Of a stretch of 64,000 nucleotides of DNA, positions 1 to 64,000 are shown in pieces; the first letter of the stretch is position 1; each line of letters starts with the position of its first letter. Below the pieces are notes generated by a model that saw only the letters and a program-made list of their open reading frames with translations, searched no databases and was not told the origin of the DNA. Source of the stretch: Muricea muricata (Eukaryota; Cnidaria; Anthozoa; Malacalcyonacea; Plexauridae); NCBI GenBank assembly GCA_963855995.1, contig OY979717.1, positions 35,350,997 through 35,414,996 on the forward strand, in the 5' to 3' direction. A program made the translations under genes and the position numbers.

Positions 1-508
1 GAGCAACATGTTATTTGAGTCAATGGTTTTGCACTTACCCAGAAAGAAGCTTCAAAAATTTTTTGCTTCCTGAGATTTTGGAACTGTTAAAAAGTCCATG
101 TTTCCATAGTGTAGCGGTCATCAAAAGTGGTTAACAAAGAGAAGGACTCGAGTTTGATCCTTGGTAGAGCCAGTCTAAATTGAAAAACTTTTTTCTTTAG
201 TACATTCATCATGTTCAGTTATGCTTTTAATTGGCCCATTTCTCCCAGCTCGATCCCGACAAAAAAGTTTAAGCTAAAAATTGTGCTTTCGATTTTTAAA
301 ACAGTATGTTTAAAACAATGTTAATCTTACTGAATATTTTGGCTAAGACTAGGATGTTTTTCAAGTCAATGGTTTTGCACCTACGACGGCGCTATAAAAT
401 TCCTCGCATTCTTAATATTTGAAACATTTGGAAACGTTGGCTTGTATCGACTCAGAAACAATAATGTATATAAAAAACATTGAGAATTTTTTCCATAAAT
501 GAAGCCAT

Positions 509-581
509 GTTTCTGTAGTGTAGTAGTTATCACGTGCGCTTAACACGCACAAGGTCCCCAGTTCAATCCTGGGCATAAACA
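509..581 (+). tRNA. tRNA-Val(AAC)-like, VA3 (U1)
   Basis: G57 to A, acceptor C5-T68 mismatch (cataaac), anticodon stem C29-A41 mismatch (gcgc/gcac). Confidence 0.5.
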
Positions 582-816
582 ATGGGAAAATTTTCCACTG
601 TAAAGAAAAAATATATTTTGAATCTTTTGACAAATACGTGGAAAAAACGAGGCGAGAATATTTCAAAGTGTAGCGCCCGTACAAAAAATAAAAATTGTGT
701 CCAATTATTTTAGGGTTAAAAACAGTGTGTTTCCTAGCTTTTCTTTCTCCGTGTATATTTTTTCTTCTCATTTCTCACTACCATTCCTAGGAAATGTTGT
801 GCAACAGATCAATCGC

Positions 817-889
817 GTTTCTGTAGTGTAGTGGTCATCACGTGCGCTTTACACGCGCAAGGTCCTCAGTTCGATCCTGAGCAGAAAAT
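817..889 (+). tRNA. tRNA-Val(TAC), VT of U1
   Basis: The 3' end reads cagaaaat: C72 to A breaks the G1-C72 pair and the discriminator is T. This 'aaaat' subtype is common in the homogeneous units and is probably poorly processed or charged. Confidence 0.68.
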
Positions 890-1130
890 TTCTAAACTTT
901 TTAGACTTCTTTGTATAATGTGGCGGTCATCAGGTGTACTTAATTCGCGTAAGGGCTAAAGCCCGTTCCTGGGCAGAAACAGTCTAATCTGAAAAACGTG
1001 TTTTAGGATAAAGACATAAAATTCGTGGCCTGCTTATCCTTTGAAACCGTTGGAAAAGTGTGCTTCTATCGACTCTCAGACAATAACGTATATGAGATAC
1101 GCTGAGATTTTTTCCAATAAAAGCAGCCAT

Positions 1131-1208
1131 GTTTCTGTAGTGTAGTGTAGTAGTTATCACGTGTGCTTAACACGCACAAGGTCCCCAGTTCGATCCTGGG
1201 CAGAAACA
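1131..1208 (+). tRNA. tRNA-Val(AAC), VA1 with insertion (U1)
   Basis: As the 8264 reference (insertion, A18). Confidence 0.72.
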
Positions 1209-1436
1209 ATGGGAAAATTTTTCACTGTAAAGAAAAAATATATTTTGATTTTTTGACAAATATCTCAAAACACTTAGGCGAGAAAATTTCATACTCTAGC
1301 ACGCGTACAAAAAAAATTGTGTTCAATTCTTTTCGGGTTTAAAACAGTGTGTTGCCTCAAATTTCATTCTTTTTGTATTTTTTTCAACGCATTCTCACAA
1401 AAATTGTTCAGAATTTTTTTGGAACACATCAAGCGT

Positions 1437-1474
1437 GTTTCTGTAATGTAGTGGTTCGATCCTGGGCAGAAACA
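1437..1474 (+). pseudogene. Deleted tRNA-Val(CAC), 38 nt (U1), class reference
   Basis: VC with a 35-bp internal deletion joining agtggt directly to tcgatcc. The acceptor stem (gtttctg/cagaaac) and the 3' part of the T arm remain. The 3' half of the D arm, the whole anticodon arm, the variable loop and the 5' half of the T stem are gone. It cannot be a translating tRNA. The B box core and the first half of the A box now sit only a few bases apart. All eight deleted copies share the same breakpoint, so one deletion spread through the array. Confidence 0.88.
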
Positions 1475-2122
1475 TTCTAAACTAATAAATTTCCGTCTTT
1501 ATTGTAGCGATCAACATGTGTACTTAATTCGTGTAAGAAGCGCAAAAATCGTGCTATTATCTCATTAAAAAGTATCTTTCAAATAATATTCATCTTAATA
1601 AAAATCTTCGCTTCGAGCAACATGTTATTTGAGTCAATGGTTTTGCACTTACCCAGAAAGAAGCTTCAAAAATTTTTTGCTTCCTGAGATTTTGGAACTG
1701 TTAAAAAGTCCATGTTTCCATAGTGTAGCGGTCATCAAAAGTGGTTAACAAAGAGAAGGACTCGAGTTTGATCCTTGGTAGAACCAGTCTAAATTGAAAA
1801 ACTTTTTTCTTTAGTACATTCATCATGTTCAGTTATGCTTTTAATTGGCCCATTTCTCCCAGCTCGATCCCGACAAAAAAGTTTAAGCTAAAAATTGTGC
1901 TTTCGATTTTTAAAACAGTATGTTTAAAACAATGTTAATCTTACTGAATATTTTGGCTAAGACTAGGATGTTTTTCAAGTCAATGGTTTTGCACCTACGA
2001 CGGCGCTATAAAATTCCTCGCATTCTTAATATTTGAAACATTTGGAAACGTTGGCTTGTATCGACTCAGAAACAATAATGTATATAAAAAACGCTGAGAA
2101 TTTTTTCCATAAATGAAACCAT

Positions 2123-2195
2123 GTTTCTGTAGTGTAGTAGTTACCACGTGTGCTTAACACGCACAAGGTCCCCAGTTCAATACAGGGCAAAAACA
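2123..2195 (+). pseudogene. tRNA-Val(AAC) pseudogene, VA2 (U2)
   Basis: As the 9291 reference. Confidence 0.6.
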
Positions 2196-2430
2196 ATCGA
2201 AAGTTTTTTCACTGCAAAGAAAAAAGATATTTTGAACTTTTTGACAAATACGTGGAAACAACAAGGCGAGATAATTTCATAGTGTAGCGCCCGTACATAA
2301 AATAAAAATTGTGCCCAATTCTTTTAGGGTTAAAAACAGTGTGTTTCTTAGCTTTTCTTTCTGCGTGTCAATTTTTTCTTCTCATTAATCACTATCATTC
2401 CCAGGAAATGTTGTGCAACAGTTCAATCGC

Positions 2431-2503
2431 AATTCTGTAGTGTAGTGGTCATCACATGCGCTTCATACGCGCAAGGTTCTCAGTTCGATCCTGAGCAGAA
2501 ACA
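2431..2503 (+). tRNA. tRNA-Val-type, CAT anticodon, VM (U2)
   Basis: As the 9599 reference. Confidence 0.58.
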
Positions 2504-8022: not shown

Positions 8023-8030
8023 TTCTAAAC

Positions 8031-8035: not shown

Positions 8036-8039
8036 AGCC

Positions 8040-8341: not shown

Positions 8342-8350
8342 ATGGGAAAA

Positions 8351-11939: not shown

Positions 11940-12587
11940 TTCTAAACTAATAAATTTCCGTCTTTATTGTAGCGATCAACATGTGTACTTAATTCGTGTA
12001 AGAAGCGTAAAAATCGTGCTATTATCTCATTAAAAAGTATCTTTCAAACAATATTCATCTTAATAAAAATCTTCGCTTCGAGCAACATGTTATTTGAGTC
12101 AATGGTTTTGCACTTACCCAGAAAGAAGCTTCAAAAATTTTTTGCTTCCTGAGATTTTGGAACTGTTAAAAAGTCCATGTTTCCATAGTGTAGCGGTCAT
12201 CAAAAGTGGTTAACAAAGAGAAGGACTCGAGTTTGATCCTTGGTAGAACCAGTCTAAATTGAAAAACTTTTTTCTTTAGTACATTCATCATGTTCAGTTA
12301 TGCTTTTAATTGGCCCATTTCTCCCAGCTCGATCCCGACAAAAAAGTTTAAGCTAAAAATTGTGCTTTCGATTTTTAAAACAGTATGTTTAAAACAATGT
12401 TAATCTTACTGAATATTTTGGCTAAGACTAGGATGTTTTTCAAGTCAATGGTTTTGCACCTACGACGGCGCTATAAAATTCCTCGCATTCTTAATATTTG
12501 AAACATTTGGAAACGTTGGCTTGTATCGACTCAGAAACAATAATGTATATAAAAAACGCTGAGAATTTTTTCCATAAATGAAACCAT

Positions 12588-12660
12588 GTTTCTGTAGTGT
12601 AGTAGTTACCACGTGTGCTTAACACGCACAAGGTCCCCAGTTCAATACAGGGCAAAAACA
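12588..12660 (+). pseudogene. tRNA-Val(AAC) pseudogene, VA2 (U8)
   Basis: As the 9291 reference. Confidence 0.6.
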
Positions 12661-12895
12661 ATCGAAAGTTTTTTCACTGCAAAGAAAAAAGATATTTTGA
12701 ACTTTTTGACAAATACGTGGAAACAACAAGGCGAGATAATTTCATAGTGTAGCGCCCGTACATAAAATAAAAATTGTGCCCAATTCTTTTAGGGTTAAAA
12801 ACAGTGTGTTTCTTAGCTTTTCTTTCTGCGTGTCAATTTTTTCTTCTCATTAATCACTATCATTCCCAGGAAATGTTGTGCAACAGTTCAATCGC

Positions 12896-12968
12896 GTTTC
12901 TGTAGTGTAGTGGTCATCACGTGCGCTTTACACGCGCAAGGTCCTCAGTTCGATCCTGAGCAGAAAAT
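12896..12968 (+). tRNA. tRNA-Val(TAC), VT of U8
   Basis: aaaat subtype inside a VM-type upstream flank (cattcccagg, cagttcaatcgc): a VM gene overwritten by VT. Confidence 0.68.
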
Positions 12969-13209
12969 TTCTAAACTTTTTAGACTTCTTTGTATAATGT
13001 GGCGGTCATCAGGTGTACTTAATTCGCGTAAGGGCTAAAGCCCGTTCCTGGGCAGAAACAGTCTAATCTGAAAAACGTGTTTTAGGATAAAGACATAAAA
13101 TTCGTGGCCTGCTTATCCTTTGAAACCGTTGGAAAAGTTTGCTTCTATCGACTCTCAGACAATAACGTATATGAGATACGCTGAGATTTTTTCCAATAAA
13201 AGCAGCCAT

Positions 13210-13287
13210 GTTTCTGTAGTGTAGTGTAGTAGTTATCACGTGTGCTTAACACGCACAAGGTCCCCAGTTCGATCCTGGGCAGAAATA
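13210..13287 (+). tRNA. tRNA-Val(AAC), VA1 with insertion (U8)
   Basis: A18 as at 8264, plus T72 as at 9913: a mixture of the two subtypes. Confidence 0.68.
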
Positions 13288-13515
13288 ATGGGAAAATTTT
13301 TCACTGTAAAGAAAAAATATATTTTGATTTTTTGACAAATATCTCAAAACACTTAGGCGAGAGTATTTCATACTCTAGCACGCGTACAAAAAAAATTGTG
13401 TTCAATTCTTTTAGAGTTTAAAACAGTGTGTTTCCTCACATTTCATTCTCTTTGTATTTTTTTCTACGCATTCTCACAAAAATTGTTCAGAATTTTTTTG
13501 GAACACATCAAGCGT

Positions 13516-13588
13516 GTTTCTGTAATGTAGTGGTCATCACGTGCGCCTCACACGCGCAAGGTCCTCAGTTCGATCCTGGGCAGAAACA
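13516..13588 (+). tRNA. tRNA-Val(CAC), VC of U8
   Basis: Matches the VC reference. Confidence 0.8.
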
Positions 13589-14235
13589 TTCTAAACTAAT
13601 AAATTTCCGTCTTTATTGTAGCGATCAACATGTGTACTTAATTCGTGTAAGAAGCGTAAAAATCGTGCTATTATCTCATTAAAAAGTATCTTTCAAACAA
13701 TATTCATCTTAATAAAAATCTTCGCTTCGAGCAACATGTTATTTGAGTCAATGGTTTTGCACTTACCCAGAAAGAAGCTTGAAAATTTTTTGCTTCCTGA
13801 GATTTTGGAACTGTTAAAAAGTCCATGTTTCCATAGTGTAGCGGTCATCAAGTGTGGTTAACAAAGAGAAGGACTCGAGTTTGATCCTTGGTAGAACCAG
13901 TCTAAATTGAAAAACTTTTTTCTTTAGTACATTCATCATGTTCAGTTATGCTTTTAATTGGCCCATTTCTCCCAGCTCGATCCCGACAAAAAAGTTTAAG
14001 CTAAAAATTGTGCTTTCGATTTTTAAAACAGTATGTTTAAAACAATGTTAATCTTACTGAATATTTTGGCTAAGACTAGGATGTTTTTCAAGTCAGTGGT
14101 TTTGCACCTACGACGGCGCTATAAAATTGCTCGCATTCTTACTATTTGAAACATTTGGAAACGTTAGCTTGTATCGACTCAGAAACAATAATGTATATAA
14201 AAAACATTGAGAATTTTTTCCATAAATGAAGCCAT

Positions 14236-21800: not shown

Positions 21801-22448
21801 TTCTAAACTAATAAATTTCCGTCTTTATTGTAGCGATCAACATGTGTACTTAATTCGTGTAAGAAGCGCAAAAATCGTGCTATTATCTCATTAAAAAGTA
21901 TCTTTCAAACAATATTCATCTTAATAAAAATCTTCGCTTCGAGCAACATGTTATTTGAGTCAATGGTTTTGCACTTACCCAGAAAGAAGCTTCAAAAATT
22001 TTTTGCTTCCTGAGATTTTGGAACTGTTAAAAAGTCCATGTTTCCATAGTGTAGCGGTCATCAAAAGTGGTTAACAAAGAGAAGGACTCGAGTTTGATCC
22101 TTGGTAGAACCAGTCTAAATTGAAAAACTTTTTTCTTTAGTACATTCATCATGTTCAGTTATGCTTTTAATTGGCCCATTTCTCCCAGCTCGATCCCGAC
22201 AAAAAAGTTTAAGCTAAAAATTGTGCTTTCGATTTTTAAAACAGTATGTTTAAAACAATGTTAATCTTACTGAATATTTTGGCTAAGACTAGGATGTTTT
22301 TCAAGTCAATGGTTTTAAACCTACGACGGCGCTTTAAAAATCCTCGCATTCTTAGTGTTTGAAACATTTGGAAACGTTAGCTTGTATCGACTCAGAAACA
22401 ATAATGTATATAAAAAACGCTGAGAATTTTTTCCATAAATGAAGCCAT

Positions 22449-22521
22449 GTTTCTGTAGTGTAGTAGTTATCACGTGTGCTTAACACGCACAAGGTCCCCA
22501 GTTCAATCCTGGGCAGAAACA
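22449..22521 (+). tRNA. tRNA-Val(AAC), VA3 (U14)
   Basis: Intact acceptor, as the 3735 reference. Confidence 0.65.
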
Positions 22522-22756
22522 ATGGGAAAATTATCCACTGTAAAGGAAAAATATATTTTGAATCTTTTGACAAATACGTGGAAAAAACAAGGCGAGAATA
22601 TTTCAAAGTGTAGCGCCCGTACATAAAATAAAAATTGTGTCCAACTATTTTAGGGTTAAAAACAGTGTGTTTCCTAGCTTTTCTTTCTCCGTGTATATTT
22701 TTTCTTCTCATTTCTGACTACCATTCCTAGGAAATGTTGTGCAACAGATCAATCGC

Positions 22757-22829
22757 GTTTCTGTAGTGTAGTGGTCATCACGTGCGTTTTACACGCGCAA
22801 GGTCCTCTGTTCGATCCTGAGCAGAAACA
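22757..22829 (+). tRNA. tRNA-Val(TAC), VT of U14
   Basis: Same C31-to-T and ctctg changes as U3. Confidence 0.68.
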
Positions 22830-23070
22830 TTCTAAACTTTTTAGCCTTCTTTCTATAATGTGGCGGTCATCAGGTGTACTTAATTCGCGTAAGGGCTAAA
22901 GCCCGTTCCTGGGCAGAAACAGTCTAGTCTGAAAAACGTGCTTTAGGATAAAGACATAAAATTCGTGGCCTGCTTATCCTTTGAAACCGTTGGAAAAGTT
23001 GGCTTCTATCGACTCTCAGACAATAATGTATATGAGACACGCTGAGATTTTTTCCAATAAAAGCAGCCAT

Positions 23071-23143
23071 GTTTCTGTACTGTAGTGGTTTTCACGTGTG
23101 CTTAACACGCACAAGGTTCCCAGTTCGATCCTAGGCAGAAACA
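23071..23143 (+). tRNA. tRNA-Val(AAC)-like, VA1 without insertion (U14)
   Basis: As 4357, plus G10 to C (tactgtag), which breaks the D stem and A box. Confidence 0.6.
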
Positions 23144-23372
23144 ATGGGAAAATTTTTCACTGTAAAGAAAAAATATATTTTGATTTTTTGACATATATCT
23201 CAAAACACCTAGGCGAGAATATTTCATACTCTAGCACGCGTACAAAAAAAAATTGTGTTCAATTCTTTTAGAGTTTAAAACAGTGTGTTGCCTCACATTT
23301 CATTCTCTTTGTATTTTTTTCTACGCATTGTCACAAAAATGGTTCAGAATTTTTATGGAACACATCAAGCGT

Positions 23373-23445
23373 GTTTCTGTAATGTAGTGGTCATCTCGTG
23401 CGCCTCACACGCGCAAGGTCCTCAGTTCGATCCTGGGCAGAAACA
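23373..23445 (+). tRNA. tRNA-Val(CAC), VC of U14
   Basis: A24 to T, as in U3 and U29. Confidence 0.7.
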
Positions 23446-24092
23446 TTCTAAACTAATAAATTTCCGTCTTTATTGTAGCGATCAACACGTGTACTTAATT
23501 CCTGTAAGAAGCCTAAAAATCGTGCTATTATCTCATTAAAAAGTATCTTTCAAACAATATTCATCTTAATAAAAATCTTCGCTTCGAGCAGCATGTTATT
23601 TGAGTCAATGGTTTTGCACTTACCCAGAAAGAAGCTTGAAAATTTTTTGCTTCCTGAGATTTTGGAACTGTTGAAAAGTCCATGTTTCCATAGTGTAGCG
23701 GTCATCAAGTGTGGTTAACAAAGAGAAGGACTCGAGTTTGATCCTTGGCAGAAGCAGTCTAAATTGAAAAACTTTTTTCTTTAGTACATTCATCATGTTC
23801 AGTTATGCTTTTAATTGGCCCATTTCTCCCAGCTCGATCCCGACAAAAAAGTTTAAGCTAAAAATTGTGCTTTCGATTTTTAAAACAGTATGTTTAAAAC
23901 AATGTTAATCTTACTGAATATTTTGGCTAAGACTAGGATGTTTTTCAAGTCAATGGTTTTGCACCTACGACGGCGCTATAAAATTCCTCGCATTCTTAAT
24001 ATTTGAAACATTTGGAAACGTTGGCTTGTATCGACTCAGAAACAATAATGTATATAAAAAACGCTGAGAATTTTTTCCATAAATGAAGCCAT

Positions 24093-26356: not shown

Positions 26357-26429
26357 GTTTCTGTAGTGTAGTGGTTATCACGTGTGCTTAACACGCACAA
26401 GGTCCCCAGTTCGATCCTGGGCAGAAACA
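26357..26429 (+). tRNA. tRNA-Val(AAC), class VA1 reference without insertion (U16)
   Basis: A 73-nt cloverleaf with all stems paired: acceptor gtttctg/cagaaac with A73, D stem gtg/cac, anticodon stem tgtgc/gcaca (all Watson-Crick), T stem CCCAG/CTGGG. Loop TTAACAC gives anticodon AAC; in eukaryotes A34 is normally converted to inosine and reads GUU, GUC and GUA. The A box tagtgtagtgg and B box gttcgatcc are intact, and TTTTT follows about 14 nt downstream. Copies at 30235, 53364 and 60533 share this form. Together with the VT reference these are the most convincing tRNA genes in the window. Confidence 0.9.
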
Positions 26430-27650: not shown

Positions 27651-27723
27651 GTTTCTGTAGTGTAGTGGTCATCACGTGCGCTTTACACGCGCAAGGTCCT
27701 CAGTTCGATCCTGAGCAGAAACA
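27651..27723 (+). tRNA. tRNA-Val(TAC), class VT reference (U17)
   Basis: A 73-nt cloverleaf with every stem paired. Acceptor gtttctg/cagaaac with A73; D stem gtg/cac; anticodon stem tgcgc/gcgca; T stem CTCAG/CTGAG. Loop TTTACAC gives anticodon TAC, which reads GUA and, depending on U34 modification, GUG. The A box (tagtgtagtgg) and B box (gttcgatcc) are intact. A T-run (TTTTTT) follows about 10 nt after the discriminator, a good Pol III stop. Relative to VC, position 64 is A instead of G, turning T50-G64 into a Watson-Crick T50-A64 pair. With its three identical-class siblings (29294, 57948, 59592) this is among the best functional candidates in the window. Confidence 0.88.
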
Positions 27724-29293: not shown

Positions 29294-29366
29294 GTTTCTG
29301 TAGTGTAGTGGTCATCACGTGCGCTTTACACGCGCAAGGTCCTCAGTTCGATCCTGAGCAGAAACA
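29294..29366 (+). tRNA. tRNA-Val(TAC), VT of U18
   Basis: Intact, as the VT reference; TTTTTT follows at about +10. Confidence 0.87.
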
Positions 29367-30234: not shown

Positions 30235-30307
30235 GTTTCTGTAGTGTAGTGGTTATCACGTGTGCTTAACACGCACAAGGTCCCCAGTTCGATCCTGGGC
30301 AGAAACA
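30235..30307 (+). tRNA. tRNA-Val(AAC), VA1 without insertion (U18)
   Basis: Intact, as the 26357 reference. Confidence 0.89.
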
Positions 30308-52500: not shown

Positions 52501-52741
52501 TTCTAAACTTTTTAGCCTTCTTCCTATAATGTGGCGGTCATCAGGTGTACTTAATTCACGTAAGGGCTAAAGCCCGTTCCTGGGCAGAAACAGTCTAATC
52601 TGAAAAACGTGCTTTAGGATGAAGACATAAAATTCGTGGCCTGCTTATTGTTTGAAACAGTTGGAAAAGTTGGCTTCTATCGACTCTCAGACAATAATGT
52701 ATATGAAACACGCTGAGACTTTTTCCACTAAAAGCAGCCAT

Positions 52742-52814
52742 GTTTCTGTAGTGTAGTGGTTATCACGTGTGCTTAACACGCACAAGGTCCCAAGTTCAAT
52801 ACAGGGCAGAAACA
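52742..52814 (+). pseudogene. tRNA-Val(AAC) pseudogene, VA2 (U30 extra slot)
   Basis: As 6000, plus a T-stem change (gtcccaag, C51 to A). Confidence 0.57.
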
Positions 52815-53049
52815 ATCGAAAGTTTTTTCACTGCAAAGAAAAAAGATATTTTGAACTTTTGGACAAATACGTGGAAACAACAAGGCGAGATAATTTCATA
52901 GAGTAGCGCCCGTACATAAAATAAAAATTGTGTCCAATTCTTTTAGGGTTAAAAACAGTGTGTTTCTTAGCTTTTCTTTCTCCGTGTCAATTTTTTCTTC
53001 TCATTAATCACTATCATTCCTAGGAAATGTTGTGCAACAGTTCAATCGC

Positions 53050-53122
53050 AATTCTGTAGTGTTGTGGTCATCACATGCGCTTCACACGCGCAAGGTTCTC
53101 AGTTCGATCCTGAGCAGAAACA
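53050..53122 (+). tRNA. tRNA-Val(CAC)-like, VM ancestor form (U30)
   Basis: As 6308. Confidence 0.55.
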
Positions 53123-53363
53123 TTCTAAACTTTTTAGCCTTCTTTCTATAATGTGGCGGTCATCAGGTGTACTTAATTCGCGTAAGGGCTAAAGCCCGTT
53201 CCTGGGCAGAAACAGTCTAGTCTGAAAAACGTGCTTTAGGATAAAGACATAAAATTCGTGGCCTGCTTATCCTTTGAAACCGTTGGAAAAGTTGGCTTCT
53301 ATCGACTCTCAGACAATAATGTATATGAGACACGCTGAGATTTTTTCCAATAAAAGCAGCCAT

Positions 53364-53436
53364 GTTTCTGTAGTGTAGTGGTTATCACGTGTGCTTAACA
53401 CGCACAAGGTCCCCAGTTCGATCCTGGGCAGAAACA
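53364..53436 (+). tRNA. tRNA-Val(AAC), VA1 without insertion (U30)
   Basis: Intact, as the 26357 reference. Confidence 0.89.
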
Positions 53437-53664
53437 ATGGGAAAATTTTTCACTGTAAAGAAAAAATGTATTTTGATTTTTTGACAAATATCTCAAAACA
53501 CTTAGGCGAGAATATTTCATACTCTAGCACGCGTACAGAAAAAATTGTGTTCAATTCTTTTCGAGTTTAAAACAGTGTGTTGCCTCACATTTCATTCTTT
53601 TTGTATTTTTTTCAAGGCATTCTCACAAAAATTGTTCAGAATTTTTTTGGAACTAATCAAGCGT

Positions 53665-53737
53665 GTTTCTGTAATGTAGTGGTCATCACGTGCGCCTCAC
53701 ACGCGCAAGGTCCTCAGTTCGATCCTTGGCAGAAACA
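53665..53737 (+). tRNA. tRNA-Val(CAC), VC of U30
   Basis: G63 to T makes a C51-T63 mismatch in the T stem. Confidence 0.72.
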
Positions 53738-54384
53738 TTCTAAACTAATAAATTTCCGTCTTTATTGTAGCGATCAACATGTGTACTTAATTCGTGTAAG
53801 AAGCGTAAAAATCGTGCTATTATCTCATTAAAAAGTATCTTTCAAACAATATTCATCTTAATAAAAATCTTCGCTTCGAGCAACATAATATTTGAGTCAA
53901 TGGTTTTGCACTTACCCAGAAAGAAGCTTGAAAATTTTTTGCTTCCTGAGATTTTGGAACTGTTAAAAAGTCCATGTTTCCATAGTGTAGCGGTCATCAA
54001 GTGTGGTTAACAAAGAGAAGGACTCGAGTTTGATCCTTGGCAGAAGCAGTCTAAATTGAAAAACTTTTTTCTTTAGTACATTCATCATGTTCAGTTATGC
54101 TTTTAATTGGCCCATTTCTCCCAGCTCGATCCCGACAAAAAAGTTTAAGCTAAAAATTGTGCTTTCGATTTTTAAAACAGTATGTTTAAAACAATGTTAA
54201 TCTTACTGAATATTTTGGCTAAGACTAGGATGTTTTTCAAGTCAATGGTTTTGCACCTACGACGGCGCTATAAAATTCCTCGCATTCTTAATATTTGAAA
54301 CACTTGGAAACGTTAGCTTGTATCGACTCAGAAACAATAATGTATATAAAAAACGTTGAGAATTTTTTCCATAAATGAAGCCAT

Positions 54385-54457
54385 GTTTCTGTAGTGTAGT
54401 AGTCACCACGTGTGCTTAACACGCACAAGGTCCCCAGTTCAATCCTGGGCATAAAAA
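54385..54457 (+). tRNA. tRNA-Val(AAC)-like, VA3 (U31)
   Basis: cataaaa 3' end as in U4. Confidence 0.45.
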
Positions 54458-54691
54458 AGGGAAAATTATCCACTGTAAAGAAAAAATATATTTTGAATCT
54501 TTTTACATTTACGTGGAAAAAACAAGGCGAGAATATTTCAAAGTGTAGCGCCCGTACATAAAATAAAAATTGTGTCCAACTATTTTAGGGTTAAAAACAG
54601 TGTGTTTCCTAGCTTTTCTTTCTCCGTGTATATTTTTTCTTCTCATTTCTCACTATTCTTCCTAGGAAATGTTGTGCAACAGATCAATCGC

Positions 54692-54764
54692 GTTTCTGTA
54701 GTGTAGTGGTCATCACGTGCGCTTTACACGCGCAAGGTCCTCTGTTCGATCCTGAGCAGAAACA
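54692..54764 (+). tRNA. tRNA-Val(TAC), VT of U31
   Basis: ctctg subtype. Confidence 0.74.
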
Positions 54765-55005
54765 TTCTAAACTTTTTAGCCTTCTTCCTATAATGTGGCG
54801 GTCATCAGGTGTACTTAATTCACGTAAGGGCTAAAGCCCGTTCCTGGGCAGAAACAGTCTAATCTGAAAAACGTGCTTTAGGATGAAGACATAAAATTCG
54901 TGGCCTGCTTATTGTTTGAAACAGTTGGAAAAGTTGGCTTCTATCGACTCTCAGACAATAATGTATATGAAACACGCTGAGACTTTTTCCACTAAAAGCA
55001 GCCAT

Positions 55006-55083
55006 GTTTCTGTAGTGTAGTGTAGTGGTTATCACGTGTGCTTAACACGCACAAGGTCCCCAGTTCGATCCTGGGCAGAAACA
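55006..55083 (+). tRNA. tRNA-Val(AAC), VA1 with insertion (U31)
   Basis: Insertion with GG retained and C72 intact: the best-preserved inserted copy. Confidence 0.76.
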
Positions 55084-55311
55084 ATGGGAAAATTTTTCAC
55101 TGTAAAGAAAAAATATATTTTGATTTTTTGACAAATATCTCAAAACACTTAGGCTAGAGTATTTCATACTCTAGCACGCGTACAAAAAAAATTGTGTTCA
55201 ATTCTTTTAGAGTTTAAAACAGTGTGTTGCCTCACATTTCATTCTCTTGGTATTTTTTTCTACGCATTCTCACAAAAAATGTTCAGAATTTTTTTATAAC
55301 ACATCAAGCGT

Positions 55312-55384
55312 GTTTCTGTAATGTAGTGGTCTTCACGTGCGCCTCACACGCGCAAGGTCCTCAGTTCGATCCTGGGCAGAAACA
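55312..55384 (+). tRNA. tRNA-Val(CAC), VC of U31
   Basis: A21 to T, shared with U15. Confidence 0.75.
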
Positions 55385-56031
55385 TTCTAAACTAATAAAT
55401 TTCCGTCTTTATTGTAGCGATAAACATGTGTACTTAATTCGTGTAAGAAGCGTAAAAATCGTGCTATTATCTCATTAAAAAGTATCTTTCAAACAATATT
55501 CATCTTAATAAAAATCTTCGCTTCGAGCAACATGTTATTTGAGTCAATGGTTTTGCACTTACCCAGAAAGAAGCTTGAAAATTTTTTGCTTCCTGAGATT
55601 TTGGAACAGTTAAAAAGTCCATGTTTCCATAGTGTAGCGGTCATCAAGTGTGGTTAACAAAGAGAAGGACTCGAGTTTGATCCTTGGCAGAAGCAGTCTA
55701 AATTGAAAAACTTTTTTCTTTAGTACATTCATCATGTTCAGTTATGCTTTTAATTGGCCCATTTCTCCCAGCTCGATCCCGACAAAAAAGTTTAAGCTAA
55801 AAATTGTGCTTTCGATTTTTAAAACAGTATGTTTAAAACAATGTTAATCTTATTGAATATTTTGGCTAAGACTAGGATGTTTTTCAAGTCAATGGTTTTG
55901 CACCTACGACGGCGCTATAAAATTCCTCGCATTCTTAATATTTGAAACATTTGGAAACGTTGGCTTGTATTGACTCAGAAACAATAATGTATATAAAAAA
56001 CGCTGAGAATTTTTTCCATAAATGAAACCAT

Positions 56032-56104
56032 GTTTCTGTAGTGTAGTAGTTACCACGTGTGCTTAACACGCACAAGGTCCCCAGTTCAATACAGGGCAAA
56101 AACA
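56032..56104 (+). pseudogene. tRNA-Val(AAC) pseudogene, VA2 (U32)
   Basis: As the 9291 reference. Confidence 0.6.
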
Positions 56105-56339
56105 ATCGAAAGTTTTTTCACTGCAAAGAAAAAAGATATTTTGAACTTTTTGACAAATACGTGGAAACAACAAGGCGAGATAATTTCATAGTGTAGCGCC
56201 CGTACATAAAATAAAAATTGTGTCGAATTCTTTTAGGGTTAAAAACAGTGTGTTTCTTAGCTTTTCTTTCTGCGTGTCAATTTTTTCTTCTCATTAATCA
56301 CTATCATTCCTAGGAAATGTTGTGCAACAGTTCAATCGC

Positions 56340-56412
56340 AATTCTGTAGTGTAGTGGTCATCACATGCGCTTCATACGCGCAAGATTCTCAGTTCGATTT
56401 TGAGCAGAAACA
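56340..56412 (+). tRNA. tRNA-Val-type, CAT anticodon, VM (U32)
   Basis: G46 to A as in U16, and C60/C61 to T (ttcgattttgag), which damages the B box. Confidence 0.48.
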
Positions 56413-56653
56413 TTCTAAACTTTTTAGCCTTCTTTCTATAATGTGGTGGTCATCAGGTGTACTTAATTCGCGTAAGGGCTAAAGCCCGTTCCTGGGCAGA
56501 AACAGTCTAGTCTGAAAAACGTGCTTTAGGATAAAGACATAAAAATCGTGGCCTGTTTATCCTTTGAAACCGTTGGAAAAGTTTGCTTCTATCGACTCTC
56601 AGACAATAATGTATATGAGGCACGCTGAGATTTTTTCCAATAAAAGCAGCCAT

Positions 56654-56726
56654 CTTTCTGTAGTGTAGTGGTTATCACGTGTGCTTAACACGCACAAGGT
56701 CCCCAGTTCGATCCTGGGCAGAAACA
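56654..56726 (+). tRNA. tRNA-Val(AAC), VA1 without insertion (U32)
   Basis: G1 to C breaks the first acceptor pair; otherwise as the 26357 reference. Confidence 0.74.
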
Positions 56727-56954
56727 ATGGGAAAATTTTTCACTGTAAAGAAAAAATGTATTTTGATTTTTTGGCAAATATCTCAAAACACTTAGGCGAG
56801 AATATTTCATACTCTAGCACGCGTACAAAAAAAATTGTGTTCAATTCTTTTCGAGTTTAAAACAGTGTGTTGCCTCACATTTCATTCTTTTTGTATTTTT
56901 TTCAACGCATTCTCACAAAAATTGTTCAGAATTTTTTTGGAACACATCAAGCGT

Positions 56955-56992
56955 GTTTCTGTAATGTAGTGGTTCGATCCTGGGCAGAAACA
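56955..56992 (+). pseudogene. Deleted tRNA-Val(CAC) (U32)
   Basis: Same 35-bp deletion as at 1437. Confidence 0.88.
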
Positions 56993-57639
56993 TTCTAAAC
57001 TAATAAATTTCCGTCTTTATTTTAGCGATCAACACGTGTACTTAATTCGTGTAAGAAGCCTAAAAATCGTGCTATTATCTCATTAAAAAGTATCTTTCAA
57101 ACAATTTTCATCTTAATAAAATCTTCGCTTCGAGCAGCATGTTATTTGAGTCAATGGTTTTGCACTTACCCAGAAAGAAGCTTGAAAATTTTTTGCTTTT
57201 TGAGATTTTGGAACTGTTAAAAAGTCCATGTTTCCATAGTTTAGCGGTCATCAAGTGTGATTAACAAAGAGAAGGGCTCGAGTTTGATCCTTGGCAGAAG
57301 CATTCTAAATTGAAAAACTTTTTTTCTTAAGTATATTCATCATCTTCAGTTATGCTTTTAATTGGCCCGTTTCTCCCAGCTCGATCCCGACAAAAAAGTC
57401 TAAGCTAAAAATTGTGCTTTCGATTTTTAAAACAGTATGTTTAAAACAATGTTAATCTTACTGAATATTTTGGCTAAGACTAGGATGTTTTTCAAGTCAA
57501 TGGTTTTGCACCTACGACGGCGCTATAAAATTCCTCGCATTCTTCCTATTTGAAACATTTGGAAACGTTAGCTTGTATCGACTCAGAAACAATAATGTAT
57601 ATAAAAAACGCTGAGAATTTTTTCCATAAATGAAGCCAT

Positions 57640-57712
57640 GTTTCTGTAGTGTAGTAGTCACCAGGTGTGCTTAACACGCACAAGGTCCCCAGTTCAATCC
57701 TGGGCAGAAAAA
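57640..57712 (+). tRNA. tRNA-Val(AAC)-like, VA3 (U33)
   Basis: As 27343. Confidence 0.48.
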
Positions 57713-57947
57713 AAGGGAAAATTTCCCACTGTAAAGAAAAAATATGTTTTGAATCTTTTGACAAATACGTGGAAAAAACAAGGCGACAATATTTCAAAGT
57801 GTAGCGCCCGTACATAAAATAAAAATTGTGTCCAATTATTTTAGGGTTAAAAACAGTGTGTTTCCTAGCTTTTCTTTCTCCGTGTATATTTTTTCTTCTC
57901 ATTTCTCACTAGCATTCCTAGGAAATGTTGTGCAACAGATCAATCGC

Positions 57948-58020
57948 GTTTCTGTAGTGTAGTGGTCATCACGTGCGCTTTACACGCGCAAGGTCCTCAG
58001 TTCGATCCTGAGCAGAAACA
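57948..58020 (+). tRNA. tRNA-Val(TAC), VT of U33
   Basis: Intact, as the VT reference. Confidence 0.87.
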
Positions 58021-58261
58021 TTCTAAATTTTTTAGCCTTCTTTGTATAATGTGGCGGTCATCAGGTGTACTTAATTCGCGTAAGGGCTAAAGCCCGTTCC
58101 TGGGCAGAAACAGTCTAATGTGAAAAACGTGCTTTAGGATAAAGACATAAAATTCGTGGCCTGCTTATTGTTTGAAACAGTTGGAAAAGTTTGCTTCTAT
58201 CGACTCTCAGACAATAATGTATATGAGATACGCTGAGATTTTTTCCAATAAAAGCAGCCAT

Positions 58262-58334
58262 GTTGCTGTAGTGTAGTGGTTATCACGTGTGCTTAACACG
58301 CACAAGGTCCCCAGTTCAATCCTGGGCAGAAATA
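58262..58334 (+). tRNA. tRNA-Val(AAC)-like, VA1 of U33
   Basis: T4 to G, G57 to A and T72 as in U17, but without the C50 change. Confidence 0.53.
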
Positions 58335-58562
58335 ATGGGAAAATTTTTCACTGTAAAGAAAAAATATATTTTGATTTTTTGACAAATATCTCAAAACACT
58401 TAGGCGAGAATATTTCATACTCTAGCACGCGTACAAAAAAAATTGTGTTCAATTCTTTTAGAGTTTAAAACAATGTGTTGCCTCACATTTCATTCTCTTT
58501 GTATTTTTTTCTACGCATTCTCACAAAAATTGTTCAGAATTTTTTTGGAACACATCAAGCGT

Positions 58563-58635
58563 GTTTCTGTAATGTAGTGGTCATCACGTGCGCCTCACAC
58601 GCGCAAGGTCCTCAGTTCGATCCTGGGCAGAAACA
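58563..58635 (+). tRNA. tRNA-Val(CAC), VC of U33
   Basis: Matches the VC reference; lacks the C48 change of its partner U17. Confidence 0.8.
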
Positions 58636-59283
58636 TTCTAAACTAATTATTGTAGCGATTGTCTTTATTGTAGCGATCAACATGTGTACTTAATTCGGGT
58701 AAGAAGCCTAAAAATCGTGCTATTATCTCATTAAAAAGTATCTTTCAAACAATATTCATCTTAATAAAAATCTTCTCTTCGAGCAGCATGTTATTTGAGT
58801 CAATGGTTTTGCACTTACCCAGAAGCTCTATAATTTTTTGCTTGCTGACATTTTGGAACAGTTGAAAAGTCCATGTATCCGTAGTGTAGCGGTCATCAAG
58901 TGTTGTTCACGAACAGAAGAACTCGAGTTGGTTCCTTGGCAGAAGCGGTCTAAATTGAAAAGCTTTTTGCTTTAGTCTATTCCTCATCTTCAGTTATGCT
59001 TTTAATTGGCCCATTTCTCCCAGCTCGATCCCGACAAAAAAGTCTAAGCTAAAAATTGTGCTTTCGATTTTTAAAACAGTATGTTTAAAACAATGTTAAT
59101 CTTACTGAATATTTTAACTAAGACTAGGATGTTTTTCAAGTCAATGGTTTTGCACCTACGACGGCGCTATAAAATTCCTCGCATTCTTACTATTTGAAAC
59201 ATTTGGAAACGTTAGCTTGTATCGACTCAGAAACAATAATGTATATAAAAAACGTTGTGAATTTTTTCCATAAATGAAGCCAT

Positions 59284-59356
59284 GTATCTGTAGTGTAGTA
59301 GTTATCACATGCGCTTAACACGCAGAAGATCCCCAGTTCAATCCTGGGCATAAACA
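59284..59356 (+). tRNA. tRNA-Val(AAC)-like, VA3 (U34)
   Basis: As 28986, plus a change after the anticodon arm (cgcagaag). Confidence 0.4.
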
Positions 59357-59591
59357 ATGGGAAAATTTTCCACTGTAAAGAAAAAATATATTTTGAATCT
59401 TTTGACAAATACGTGGAAAAAACCAGGCGAGAATATTTTAAAGTGTAGCGCCCGTACATAAAATAAAAATCGTGTCCAATTATTTTAGGGTTAAGAACAG
59501 TGTGTTTCCTAGCTTTTCTTTCTCCGTGTATATTTTTTCTTCTCATTTCTCACTAGCATTTCTAGAAAATTTTGTGTAACAGATCAATCGC

Positions 59592-59664
59592 GTTTCTGTA
59601 GTGTAGTGGTCATCACGTGCGCTTTACACGCGCAAGGTCCTCAGTTCGATCCTGAGCAGAAACA
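59592..59664 (+). tRNA. tRNA-Val(TAC), VT of U34
   Basis: Intact, as the VT reference. Confidence 0.87.
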
Positions 59665-59905
59665 TTCTAAATTTTTTAGCCTTCTTTGTATAATGTGGCG
59701 GTCATCAGGTGTACTTAATTCGCGTAAGGGCTAAAGCCCGTTCCTGGGCAGAAACAGTCAAATCTGAAAAACGTGCTTTAGGATAAAGACATAAAAATCG
59801 TGGCCTTCTTATTGTTTGAAACAGTTGGAAAAGTTTGCTTCTATCGACTCTCAGACAATAATGTATATGAGATACGCTGAGATTTTTTCCAATAAAAGCA
59901 GCCAT

Positions 59906-59983
59906 GTTTCTGTAGTGTAGTGTAGTGGTTATCACGTGTGCTTAACACGCACAAGGTCCCCAGTTCAATACAGGGCAGAAACA
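59906..59983 (+). pseudogene. tRNA-Val(AAC) pseudogene, VA2 with D-arm insertion (U34)
   Basis: As 29608; D loop gttatc rather than gttacc. Confidence 0.55.
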
Positions 59984-60218
59984 ATCGAAAGTTTTTTCAC
60001 TGCAAAGAAAAAAGATATTTTGAACTTTTGGACAAATACGTGGAAACAACAAGGCGAGATAATTTCATAGAGTAGCGCCCGTACATAAAATAAAAATTGT
60101 GTCCAATTCTTTTAGGGTTAAAAACAGTGTGTTTCTTAGCTTTTCTTTCTCCGTGTCAATTTTTTCTTCTCATTAATCACTATCATTCCTAGGAAATGTT
60201 GTGCAACAGTTCAATCGC

Positions 60219-60291
60219 AATTCTGTAGTGTTGTGGTCATCACATGCGCTTCACACGCGCAAGGTTCTCAGTTCGATCCTGAGCAGAAACA
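60219..60291 (+). tRNA. tRNA-Val(CAC)-like, VM ancestor form (U34)
   Basis: As 6308. Confidence 0.55.
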
Positions 60292-60532
60292 TTCTAAACT
60301 TTTTAGCCTTCTTTCTATAATGTGGCGGTCATCAGGTGTACTTAATTCGCGTAAGGGCTAAAGCCCGTTCCTGGGCAGAAACAGTCTAGTCTGAAAAACG
60401 TGCTTTAGGATAAAGACATAAAATTCGTGGCCTGCTTATCCTTTGAAACCGTTGGAAAAGTTGGCTTCTATCGACTCTCAGACAATAATGTATATGAGAC
60501 ACCCTGAGATTTTTTCCAATAAAAGCAGCCAT

Positions 60533-60605
60533 GTTTCTGTAGTGTAGTGGTTATCACGTGTGCTTAACACGCACAAGGTCCCCAGTTCGATCCTGGGCAG
60601 AAACA
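60533..60605 (+). tRNA. tRNA-Val(AAC), VA1 without insertion (U34)
   Basis: Intact, as the 26357 reference. Confidence 0.89.
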
Positions 60606-60833
60606 ATGGGAAAATTTTTCACTGTAAAGAAAAAATGTATTTTGATTTTTTGACAAATATCTCAAAACACTTAGGCGAGAATATTTCATACTCTAGCACG
60701 CGTACAGAAAAAATTGTGTTCAATTCTTTTCGAGTTTAAAACAGTGTGTTTCCTCACATTTCATTCTTTTTGTATTTTTTTCAACGCATTCTCACAAAAA
60801 TTGTTCAGAATTTTTTTGGAACACATCAAGCGT

Positions 60834-60871
60834 GTTTCTGTAATGTAGTGGTTCGATCCTGGGCAGAAACA
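60834..60871 (+). pseudogene. Deleted tRNA-Val(CAC) (U34)
   Basis: Same 35-bp deletion as at 1437. Confidence 0.88.
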
Positions 60872-61518
60872 TTCTAAACTAATAGATTTCCGTCTTTATT
60901 GTAGCGATCAACATGTGTACTTAGTTCGTGTAAGAAGCGTAAAAATCGTGCTATTATCTCATTAAAAAGTATCTTTCAAACAATATTCATCTTAATAAAA
61001 ATCTTCGCTTCGAGCAACATGTTATTTGAGTCAATGGTTTTGCACTTACCCAGAAAGAAGCTTGAAAATTTTTTGCTTCCTGAGATTTTGGAACTGTTAA
61101 AAAGTCCATGTTTCCATAGTGTAGTTGTCATCAAGTGTGGTTAACAAAGAGAAGGACTCGAGTTTGATCCTTGGTAGAACCAGTCTAAACTGAAAAACTT
61201 TTTTCTTTAGTACATTCATCATGTTCAGTTATGCTTTTAATTGGCCCATTTCTCCCAGCTCGATCCCGACAAAAAAGTTTAAGCTAAAAATTGTGCTTTC
61301 GATTTTTAAAACAGTATGTTTAAAACAATGTTAATCTTACTGAATATTTTGGCTAAGACTAGGATGTTTTTCAAGTCAATGGTTTTGCACCTACGACGGC
61401 GCTATAAAATTCCTCGCATTCTTAATATTTGAAACATTTGGAAACGTTGGCTTGTATCGACTCAGAAACAATAATGTATATAAAAAACGCTGAGAATTTT
61501 TTCCGTAAATGAAACTAT

Positions 61519-61591
61519 GTTTCTGTAGTGTAGTAGTTACCACGTGTGCTTAACACGCACAAGGTCCCCAGTTCAATCCTGGGCATAAACA
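61519..61591 (+). tRNA. tRNA-Val(AAC)-like, VA3 (U35)
   Basis: Intact anticodon stem (gtgc/gcac) but cataaac at the 3' end: VA2-type 5' half, VA3-type 3' half. Confidence 0.5.
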
Positions 61592-61826
61592 ATGGGAAAA
61601 TTTTCCACTGTAAAGAAAAAATATATTTTGAATCTTTTGACAAATACGTGGAAAAAACGAGGCGAGAATATTTCAAAGTGTAGCGCCCGTACATAAAATA
61701 AAAATTGTGTCCAATTATTTTAGGGTTAAAAACAGTGTGTTTCCTAGCTTTTCTTTCTCCGTGTATATTTTTTCTTCTCATTTCTCACTACCATTCCTAG
61801 GAAATCTTGTGCAACAGATCAATCGC

Positions 61827-61899
61827 GTTTCTGTAGTGTAGTGGTCATCACGTGCGCTTTACACGCGCAAGGTCCTCAGTTCGATCCTGAGAAGAAACA
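61827..61899 (+). tRNA. tRNA-Val(TAC), VT of U35
   Basis: C66 to A, as at 34115. Confidence 0.7.
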
Positions 61900-62140
61900 T
61901 TCTAAACTTTTTAGCCTTCTTTCTATAATGTGGCGGCCATCAGGTGTACTTAATTCCCGTAAAAGCTAAAGCTCGTTCCTGGGCAGAAACAGTCTAATCT
62001 GAAAAACGTGCTTTAGGATAAAGACATAAAATTCTTGGCCTGCTTATCCTTTGAAACCGTTGGAAAAGTTGGCTTCTATCGACTCTCAGACACTAATGTA
62101 TATGAGACACGCTGAGATTTTTTCCAATAAAAGCAGCCAT

Positions 62141-62213
62141 GTTTCTGTAGTGTAGTGGTTTTCACGTGTGCTTTACACGCGCAAGGTCCTCTGTTCGATC
62201 CTGAGCAGAAACA
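62141..62213 (+). tRNA. tRNA-Val(TAC), VA1/VT chimera (U35 extra slot)
   Basis: The 5' half (ggttttcacgtgtgctt) is of the U3/U29 VA1 type and the 3' half (tacacgcgcaagg, ctctg) is VT. The anticodon stem still pairs with one T29-G41 wobble, and the anticodon is TAC. The crossover therefore lies in the anticodon arm. Confidence 0.7.
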
Positions 62214-62454
62214 TTCTAAACTTTTTAGCCTTCTTCCTATAATGTGGCGGTCATCAGGTGTACTTAATTCACGTAAGGGCTAAAGCCCGTTCCTGGGCAG
62301 AAACAGTCTAATCTGAAAAACGTGCTTTAGGATAAAGACATAAAATTCGTGGCCTGCTTATTGTTTGAAACAGTTGGAAAAGTTGGCTTCTATCGACTCT
62401 CAGACAATAATGTATATGAAACACGCTGAGATTTTTTCCACTAAAAGCATTCAT

Positions 62455-62527
62455 GTTTCTGTAGTGTAGTGGTTATCACGTGTCCTTAACACGCACAAGG
62501 TCCCCAGTTCAATACAGGGCAGAAACA
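62455..62527 (+). pseudogene. tRNA-Val(AAC) pseudogene, VA2 (U35 extra slot)
   Basis: As 32158. Confidence 0.58.
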
Positions 62528-62762
62528 ATCGAAAGTTTTTTCACTGCAAAGAAAAAAGATATTTTGAACTTTTGGACAAATACGTGGAAACAACAAGGCG
62601 AGATAATTTCATAGAGTAGCGCCCGTACATAAAATAAAAATTGTGTCCAATTATTTTAGGGTTAAAAACAGTGTGTTTCCTAGCTTTTCTTTCTCCGTGT
62701 ATATTTTTTCTTCTCATTTCTCACTACCATTCCTAGGAAATGTTGTGCAACAGATCAATCGC

Positions 62763-62835
62763 GTTTCTGTAGTGTAGTGGTCATCACGTGCGCTTTACAC
62801 GCGCAAGGTCCTCAGTTGGATCCTGAGCAGAAAAT
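62763..62835 (+). tRNA. tRNA-Val(TAC)-like, third VT of U35
   Basis: aaaat subtype with C56 to G, shared with 35051. Confidence 0.56.
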
Positions 62836-63076
62836 TTCTAAACTTTTTAGACTTCTTTGTATAATGTGGCGGTCATCAGGTGTACTTAATTCGCGTAAGG
62901 GCTAAAGCCCGTTCCTGGGCAGAAACAGTCTAATCTGAAAAACGTGTTTTAGGATAAAGAGATAAAATTCGTGGCCTGCTTATCCTTTGAAACCGTTGGA
63001 AAAGTTTGCTTCTATCGACTCTCAGACAATAACGTATATGAGATACGCTGAGATTTTTTCCAATAAAAGCAGCCAT

Positions 63077-63154
63077 GTTTCTGTAGTGTAGTGTAGTAGT
63101 TATCACGTGTGCTTAACACGCACAAGGTCCCCAGTTCGATCTTGGGCAGAAACA
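63077..63154 (+). tRNA. tRNA-Val(AAC), VA1 with insertion (U35)
   Basis: A18; C61 to T gives a G53-T61 wobble next to the T loop. Confidence 0.68.
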
Positions 63155-63382
63155 ATGGGAAAATTTTTCACTGTAAAGAAAAAATATATTTTGATTTTTT
63201 GACAAATATCTCAAAACACTTAGGCGAGAATATTTCATACTCTAGCACGCGTACAAAAAAAATTGTGTTCAATTCTTTTAGAGTTTAAAACAGTGTGTTT
63301 CCTCACATTTCATTCTCTTTGTATTTTTTTCTACGCATTCTCACAAAAATTGTTCAGAATTTTTTTGGAACACATCAAGCGT

Positions 63383-63455
63383 GTTTCTGTAATGTAGTGG
63401 TCATCACGTGCGCCTCACACGCGCAAGGTCCTCAGTTCGATCCTGGGCAGAAACA
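63383..63455 (+). tRNA. tRNA-Val(CAC), VC of U35
   Basis: Matches the VC reference. Confidence 0.8.
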
Positions 63456-63595
63456 TTCTAAACTAATAAATTTCCGTCTTTATTGTAGCGATCAACATGT
63501 GTACTTAATTCGTGTAAGAAGCGTAAAAATCGTGCTATTATCTCATTAAAAAGTATCTTTCAAACAATATTCATCTTAATAAAAATCTTCGCTTC

Positions 63596-64000
63596 GAGCA
63601 ACATGTTATTTGAGTCAATGGTTTTGCACTTACCCAGAAAGAAGCTTCAAAAATTTTTTGCTTCCTGAGATTTTGGAACTGTTAAAAAGTCCATGTTTCC
63701 ATAGTTTAGCGGTCATCAAAAGTGGTTAACAAAGAGAAGGACTCGAGTTTGATCCTTGGTAGAACCAGTCTAAATTGAAAAACTTTTTTCTTTAGTACAT
63801 TCATCATGTTCAGTTATGCTTTTAATTGGCCCATTTCTCCCAGCTCGATCCCGACAAAAAAGTTTAAGCTAAAAATTGTGCTTTCGATTTTTAAAACAGT
63901 ATGTTTAAAACAATGTTAATCTTACTGAATATTTTGGCTAAGACTAGGATGTTTTTCAAGTCAATGGTTTTGCACCTACGACGGCGCTATAAAATTCCTC
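63596..64000 (+). repeat. Unit U36 (partial)
   Basis: First 405 bp of a standard unit, holding D1 (63695) and the D4 remnant. The array runs past the window edge. Confidence 0.9.

Follow-up and report, generated by a model that had tools for sequence, protein, structure and literature searches.

Tandem arrays of tRNA genes are known from several lineages. The chromosomes of Phytophthora infestans carry 7,519 tRNA genes, largely in tandem arrays, along with 1,292 predicted pseudogenes, and the di- and trimeric arrays there are the more diverse ones (PMC9584435). Nematostella, a cnidarian like the species studied here, has more than 17,000 tRNA genes and pseudogenes, with 89% of its tRNA genes (tDNAs) in clusters (PMC2888827). 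In Arabidopsis, 27 Ser-Tyr-Tyr units extend over nearly 40 kb and a pseudogene precedes a Cys cluster, and the largest clusters reported in a survey of 50 plants had 110 tRNA genes (PMC10701932, PMC12652284). These statements, like the comparisons made at the end, rest on excerpts of the cited papers. Here we describe a tandem array of tRNA-Val genes in the anthozoan Muricea muricata (assembly GCA_963855995.1, 453 Mb in 74 contigs). The window, by which we mean the whole stretch of 64 kb that was analysed (C2:35,350,997-35,414,996, C2 being contig OY979717.1), lies within an array of 266 kb, of which it probably represents the degenerate side; unequal exchange is likely to have made the array, and relaxed selection to have let the window side decay.

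tRNA-Val copies and repeat units of the window

The window is free of N and is built of one nested repeat. By nhmmer with a model built from four tRNAs of the window, 152 full-length tRNA-Val copies were found above 55 bits, all on the plus strand; no minus-strand match above 8 bits was present in the window, and dinucleotide shuffling of the whole window, performed 10 times, gave a best chance score of 6.9 bits. The anticodons after alignment were AAC (78 copies), TAC (34), CAC (31) and CAT (9), which equal the counts of a preliminary description of the same DNA (34 + 22 + 22 VA, 34 VT and 27 VC + 13 VM copies), the VM group being the 9 CAT copies with 4 CAC copies of the same lineage. In addition, 122 relics scored above 9 bits (r1, 43; r3, 34; r2, 29; c3, 7; other, 9). 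A further group of 35 pieces, r4, was dropped as a proven tRNA relic and left uncounted, its scores of about 3-5 bits among the matches listed being within the shuffle noise. The nested tandem arrangement, in which a single tRNA family carries several anticodons, was confirmed, and the covariance model RF00005 of Rfam accepted many copies, with matches at 30-65 bits over 74 stretches at the gathering threshold and 98 at E ≤ 10. These two totals are undercounts, because one CAC copy missing from both lists reached 53 bits when its 201 bases were scored alone. ARAGORN gave 145 tRNA calls in the window. The earlier view that the stretch consists only of tRNA genes did not hold, as the full copies occupy 17.5% of its bases and the remainder is mostly AT-rich spacer of a unit of ~1,649 bp.

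This higher-order unit contains four tRNA-Val copies (A1, T, A2 and C) together with decayed ones and is repeated head-to-tail with a regular period. Its usual order, with start-to-start distances in bp, is r3-143-r4-266-A1-308-T-94-r1-221-A2-305-C-94-r2-218, and variants gain or lose sub-units. The sub-units A1-T-r1 and A2-C-r2 align at 80%, and a shortened third sub-unit starts with r3. Among the 35 units of the window, 27 were 1590-1665 bp long and diverged by 3.5% on average (minimum, 0.19%; maximum, 6.4%), the 8 of unusual length having been excluded from this alignment and from the tests derived from it. The spacer consensuses of sub-units differ at 74 of 347 sites, compared with 3.5% between the 27 units, which identifies the array as a higher-order repeat. 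Furthermore, window positions 22,335-33,703 are repeated at 52,628-64,000 with 98.1% identity over 11.4 kb and a lag of ~30.3 kb in a self BLAST; here, a segment comprising several units has been duplicated within the array.

To describe the state of the copies, we called a copy strictly intact when it retained each of the 20 stem pairs and 15 invariant positions checked, which is our own sequence rule and not an assay; the list of invariant positions is taken from general tRNA knowledge. By this rule, most copies in the window do not qualify as functional genes: 8 of the 152 were strictly intact, and the number was 25 when a single stem mismatch was tolerated in copies that kept all invariant positions and had no insertion. 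The lesions are common to most copies of a class, as expected if amplification came after breakage. In the 25 standard window units, A1 always had the change G18A and in 20 cases also a 5:68 mismatch, and no intact A1 was found in these 25 or in 104 units across the whole array. The TAC copies had lost the 1:72 pair and A73 in 15 of 34 cases and carried a 52:62 mismatch in 12, with 4 being strictly intact, and 27 of the 31 CAC copies had lost G10 and were without a T4 run within 40 nt. An insertion of 5 bp was found by string match in 25 AAC copies, 16 of which are displayed as insertions in the alignment, and the other 9 most likely appear there as acceptor mismatches. The CAT copies were mismatched at 1:72 and 2:71 in 9 of 9 cases; together with the 4 related CAC forms, they present an apparent change of tRNA identity in pseudogenes. 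With regard to internal promoter elements, an A-box pattern was retained in 120 of the 152 copies and in none of the 31 CAC copies, a B box with 1-3 mismatches was present in all 152, and a T4 run followed within 20 nt in 116. Judging from these patterns, some copies may still bind RNA polymerase III factors, and few look capable of yielding normal tRNA.

Left and right sides of the 266-kb array

The array spans C2:35,212,532-35,478,574 and includes 618 full copies, so that the size of 64 kb and the single strand given in the preliminary description apply to the window and not to the array, in which 15 copies on the plus strand are followed by an inverted block of 143 on the minus strand and then by 460 on the plus strand. 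The orientation switches at ~35.219 and ~35.284 Mb, away from the boundary described below. Strictly intact copies, 129 of 618 in total, were unevenly distributed, with 109 of 292 to the left of 35.34 Mb and 20 of 326 to the right, including the window (Fisher p = 2e-22), and the difference persisted when one stem mismatch was allowed (160 of 292 and 55 of 326, respectively). The intact copies on the left cover all three valine anticodons. Rfam matches of 60 bits or more, counted in 5 + 5 of 22 10-kb stretches with filters that undercount, pointed in the same direction (33 on the left and 10 on the right).

For comparisons at the level of the unit, we used 104 units of standard spacing (52 on each side) and dropped the others. 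Intact copies among the 52 left units numbered 0 at A1, 19 at T, 33 at A2 and 31 at C, with T, A2 and C all intact in 12 units, whereas the respective numbers among the 52 right units were 0, 8, 0 and 0. The right side is nevertheless not empty of intact genes, because exact canonical bodies occur there for AAC (11, compared with 29 on the left) and TAC (7, compared with 13). The mean divergence was 3.4% within the left side, 6.0% within the right side and 6.7% between them, the nearest neighbour was on the same side for all 104 units, and the tree needs one left/right change. A split-point scan, restricted to splits with 8 or more units on each side, placed the best boundary at 35,335,530-35,341,063, and none of 2,000 label permutations was as strong.

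The same division was found in signatures searched for throughout the genome. A 23-base signature of the dead CAC form occurred 55 times, always on C2, with 54 on the right side and 1 on the left. The canonical CAC 49-mer occurred 156 times, including 42 on the left side of C2, 0 on the right side and 14 unplaced, and the 100 places listed were all on contig C1, between 43,314,664 and 43,703,193, where 50 on the minus strand are followed by 50 on the plus strand. For the canonical AAC 73-mer, the 40 candidates scored, out of 1,508, were identical copies, all on C1 (43,315,284-43,486,636), and many of them were spaced by ~1,642 bp or a multiple. C1 therefore very probably holds a sister tRNA-Val array spanning ~389 kb or more, which is known from the matches and their spacing, the CAC signature covering 49 of 73 bases. 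When 1-kb queries of the right and left types were compared with the genome, 11 places were found on the right side of C2 and 4 on the left, with 2 of 45 and 2 of 36 candidates scored.

Further tRNA matches, all on the same strand, form a third run at C1:68,263,855-68,744,526, which contained 62 of 63 scored RF00005 matches. The 8 loci read from C1 68.627-68.686 Mb are tRNA-Lys(TTT) with a period of ~346 bp and gave 69 tRNA calls representing 36 different bodies, both clean and decayed ones. In this first look at the genome with RF00005, 63 of 55,957 candidates were scored; many tRNA-like sequences may exist. Two valine places and one lysine place suggest that tRNA arrays of one isotype have been recurrent in this genome.

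Several other features of the assembly were noted. Near the boundary, at C2:35,338,706, there is a tRNA with a Val body and the anticodon CTC (Glu), otherwise free of lesions, which is the only CTC among the 618 copies. An open frame of 1,051 amino acids with endonuclease and reverse transcriptase domains, resembling a long interspersed nuclear element, is inserted in the left domain (L035:493-3645, minus strand). Transposon frames with THAP and DDE_Tnp_4 domains lie just left of the array (L029:2333-3836), and their relatives number 2,167; of the 120 listed, 9 carry an organism name, in every case that of a cnidarian. C2:36,162,000-36,164,999 consists entirely of N and may be an assembly gap. 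Matches to COX1 were stop-free at C74:4213-5553 and contained a TAA at C1:38,414,782-38,416,095, and the two are possibly the mitochondrial and a nuclear copy.

Explanations for the array and its division

In the explanation that we regard as probable, a unit with several valine tRNA genes would have expanded through tandem duplication and unequal exchange, and this exchange, or conversion, would have kept neighbouring units alike. With hundreds of copies present, single copies would hardly have been selected, and copies on the right side would have been free to break as long as other copies kept up the supply of valine tRNA. The broken versions would themselves have been copied along the right side until they became the common form, as the intact ones did on the left. 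The left side and the C1 array, where many copies are identical to the canonical bodies, are likely to provide this supply, presuming that they are transcribed and that intact copies are the ones used. We also suggest, more tentatively and with some doubt, that the array is made of two domains that meet at ~35.336-35.341 Mb and exchange little, with intact alleles homogenised on one side and null alleles spread by the same process to become the common form on the other. If this is true, concerted evolution would be compartmentalised inside one array, and broken tRNA genes could be fixed by the dozen while the adjoining domain stays alive.

Constraint on the tRNA bodies was assessed at two depths. 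In the comparison of the T and C sub-unit consensuses, 9 of 146 sites in the tRNA bodies and 74 of 347 in the spacer differed (p = 1.8e-5), and the M and C consensuses gave 14 of 146 and 85 of 347 (p = 1.2e-4), indicating that, prior to the spread of the present units, the tRNA bodies were formerly conserved or else held similar by conversion. Polymorphic sites in the 27 window units were about as frequent in tRNA (46 of 297) as in spacer (166 of 1,128; p = 0.72). The diversity (pi) of A1, T, A2 and C at the unit level was 0.033, 0.040, 0.022 and 0.025 on the left, with 0.035 in the spacer, and 0.055, 0.056, 0.041 and 0.048 on the right, with 0.065 in the spacer, so that present-day constraint appears weak on both sides. 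In a neutral simulation of the left side, intact copies exceeded expectation at A2 (33 vs. 23.3, P = 0.0045) and C (31 vs. 23.4, P = 0.018) and showed no excess at T (19 vs. 23.3).

A number of these and other observations weigh against decay by relaxed selection on one side of a divided array. The left/right split was first spotted by eye among the numbers of intact copies; midpoint rooting does not recover the right side as a single clade, as 11 right units branch first; the fixed differences between the sides amount to only 6 of 1,243 alignment columns; and the relation of divergence to distance along the array is weak on the left (rho 0.22) and undetectable on the right (0.04, p = 0.13). 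With respect to constraint, the T and M consensuses show no conservation of the tRNA bodies (12 of 146 vs. 26 of 355, p = 0.71), and the deep signal in the other two pairs could stem from conversion between tRNA bodies. The diversity of C, and of C alone, is low in the window (pi in the bottom 2.4%). In class-wise alignments, in which the AAC rows mix two positions, the pi of tRNA is lower than that of the flank on both sides, including the window, with ratios of 0.37-0.63 for TAC and CAC; these alignments, in our interpretation, look further back because they include more diverged copies. The ratios of tRNA to spacer pi are similar on the two sides, and current constraint thus does not clearly differ between them. 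Because of this similarity and the restriction of the intact excess to A2 and C, the left side could represent, for the most part, an intact unit that expanded more recently.

The preliminary description had proposed a tRNA supply locus. That the window itself is such a locus, with most of its copies transcribed into usable valine tRNA, would be in accordance with the many ARAGORN and RF00005 calls, the A-box patterns, the nearby T4 runs and the lower pi of tRNA than flank in the class-wise alignments, but we find it very unlikely in view of the few strictly intact copies, the lesions shared within classes, the CAC class with its lost A box and mostly missing T4 run, the lack of a drop in polymorphic sites in the tRNA bodies of the 27 units and the presence of intact copies elsewhere. 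The proposal can be retained in a possible form for the left half, with its 109 intact copies, and for C1, with at least 40 canonical AAC copies.

We consider it very unlikely that the window is maintained for its A and B boxes as a TFIIIC-binding chromatin domain, a boundary or a centromere-like satellite. The retained A- and B-box-like motifs would fit such a role, as would the position of the array near the middle of a 71.7-Mb contig and the binding of CTCF by a tandem repeat of human tRNA genes (PMC4041453). The tRNA bodies, however, lack excess conservation among the window units, with the exception of C; the A box of CAC has been lost, and CAC copies lacking it now prevail on the right side; and runs of tRNA occur at other places in the genome. 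Least probable of all is an assembly artefact of collapsed or falsely joined repeats, as, although long tandem repeats are difficult to assemble, misassembly is argued against by the absence of N from the window and every array stretch fetched and by differences of 0.2-6% between standard window units, in addition to the identity of 98.1% in the internal duplication and the ordered division of left and right units.

Some other identities were considered for parts of the window and rejected. The tRNA-Leu(TAA) calls of ARAGORN, which would make a second isotype, look from the letters like a shift of the anticodon stem by one base in stem-mismatched Val(AAC) copies. Protein coding was rejected, as open frames of at least 80 amino acids reach 121 amino acids at most and repeat along with the unit. 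An origin as short interspersed nuclear elements within the array was rejected, for both the window and the array, as the copies are in tandem register with homologous spacers and not dispersed. CpG decay was dropped as a clue to methylation, with a CpG observed/expected ratio of 1.02. No match was found in a phage collection searched with 1.7 kb of the window or in viral contigs scanned with an exact 46-base string.

Table 1. Representative unit, strictly intact copies and other features of the window (window positions)
Feature	Position	Strand	Basis
Part of the right side (putative degenerate domain) of the tRNA-Val array	1..64000	+	Placement, array extent, domains
Representative ~1,649-bp unit: r3, (r4), A1, T, r1, A2, C, r2	12160..13807	+	Feature order and spacing
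r3, decayed copy in position A of the third, truncated sub-unit	12179..12250	+	27.9 bits; alignment
A1, tRNA-Val(AAC) pseudogene	12588..12660	+	G18A, 5:68 mismatch
T, tRNA-Val(TAC), subtype without 1:72 pair and A73; TTTTT ~8 nt downstream	12896..12968	+	Lesion check
r1, decayed tRNA, 94 bp after T	12990..13060	+	nhmmer, 38.6 bits
A2, tRNA-Val(AAC), 5-bp insertion after the acceptor stem	13209..13288	+	ARAGORN, nhmmer
C, tRNA-Val(CAC), A box disrupted by G10A (A10:C25 mismatch); T4 run absent from the 40 nt downstream	13516..13588	+	
r2, decayed, truncated tRNA 94 bp after C, positionally aligned with r1	13610..13651	+	9.6 bits alone, little above shuffles; sub-unit alignment
Example of the 9-copy CAT (Met) class with Val body	2431..2503	+	ARAGORN, lesion check
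Strictly intact tRNA-Val(AAC)	26357..26429	+	Rfam, 63.1 bits
Strictly intact tRNA-Val(TAC)	27651..27723	+	Rfam, 64.6 bits
Strictly intact tRNA-Val(TAC)	29294..29366	+	Rfam, 64.6 bits
Strictly intact tRNA-Val(AAC)	30235..30307	+	Rfam, 63.1 bits
Strictly intact tRNA-Val(AAC)	53364..53436	+	Rfam, 63.1 bits
Strictly intact tRNA-Val(TAC)	57948..58020	+	Rfam, 64.6 bits
Strictly intact tRNA-Val(TAC)	59592..59664	+	Rfam, 64.6 bits
Strictly intact tRNA-Val(AAC)	60533..60605	+	Rfam, 63.1 bits

Comparison with known tandem arrays

The preliminary description had called a nested, single-isotype array of this size with several anticodons unusual. Tandem tRNA arrays as such are a known kind of thing, and what is unusual is that one array is partitioned into intact and degenerate portions; none of the arrays in the open-access literature on tandem tRNA genes, within the portions of it that we draw on, was described as split in this manner. 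The locus offers a readable case of birth and death, as the same unit is found largely intact and decayed side by side, with canonical copies on a different contig, and it illustrates that a raw count of tRNA-like copies, 618 at one locus, is a poor guide to tRNA supply. In its organisation the array resembles higher-order-repeat satellites such as alpha satellite, in which diverged monomers are joined into a homogenised larger unit, although the monomers here are recognisable tRNA genes.

Among arrays of tRNA genes, those of Entamoeba are likewise tandem, with units of up to five tRNA genes, but their unit copies are mostly uniform within an isolate, whereas the present copies have diverged and most of those in the window are broken (PMC2652664). 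The plant clusters share repeated units of tRNA genes and are smaller, and a decayed half is not described in the excerpts of those reports (PMC10701932, PMC12652284). The human tRNA variable number tandem repeat at 1q23.3 is likewise a tandem repeat with tRNA genes and is unstable in copy number; its unit of 7.3 kb, however, is GC-rich and CTCF-binding, with tRNA genes making up less than 6% of it, unlike the unit here (PMC4041453). The CAT copies recall alloacceptor remolding, in which anticodon changes occur in young copies mostly deemed pseudogenes; the cited excerpts report it for primates and fruit flies and not for a large array (PMC4981973). In P. infestans, the array units named are shorter (513 and 850 nt, compared with ~1,649 bp here), and the excerpts of that report describe neither a unit of four valine copies with relics nor an array with separate intact and decayed domains; as in the present array, however, some units combine different anticodons of one amino acid, and unequal crossing-over has been proposed for the growth of the arrays (PMC9584435). 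Nematostella and teleosts, as in the present case, have large tDNA clusters of fifty and more, and pairs in Nematostella are mostly heterogeneous, whereas the array of M. muricata is of a single isotype (PMC2888827).

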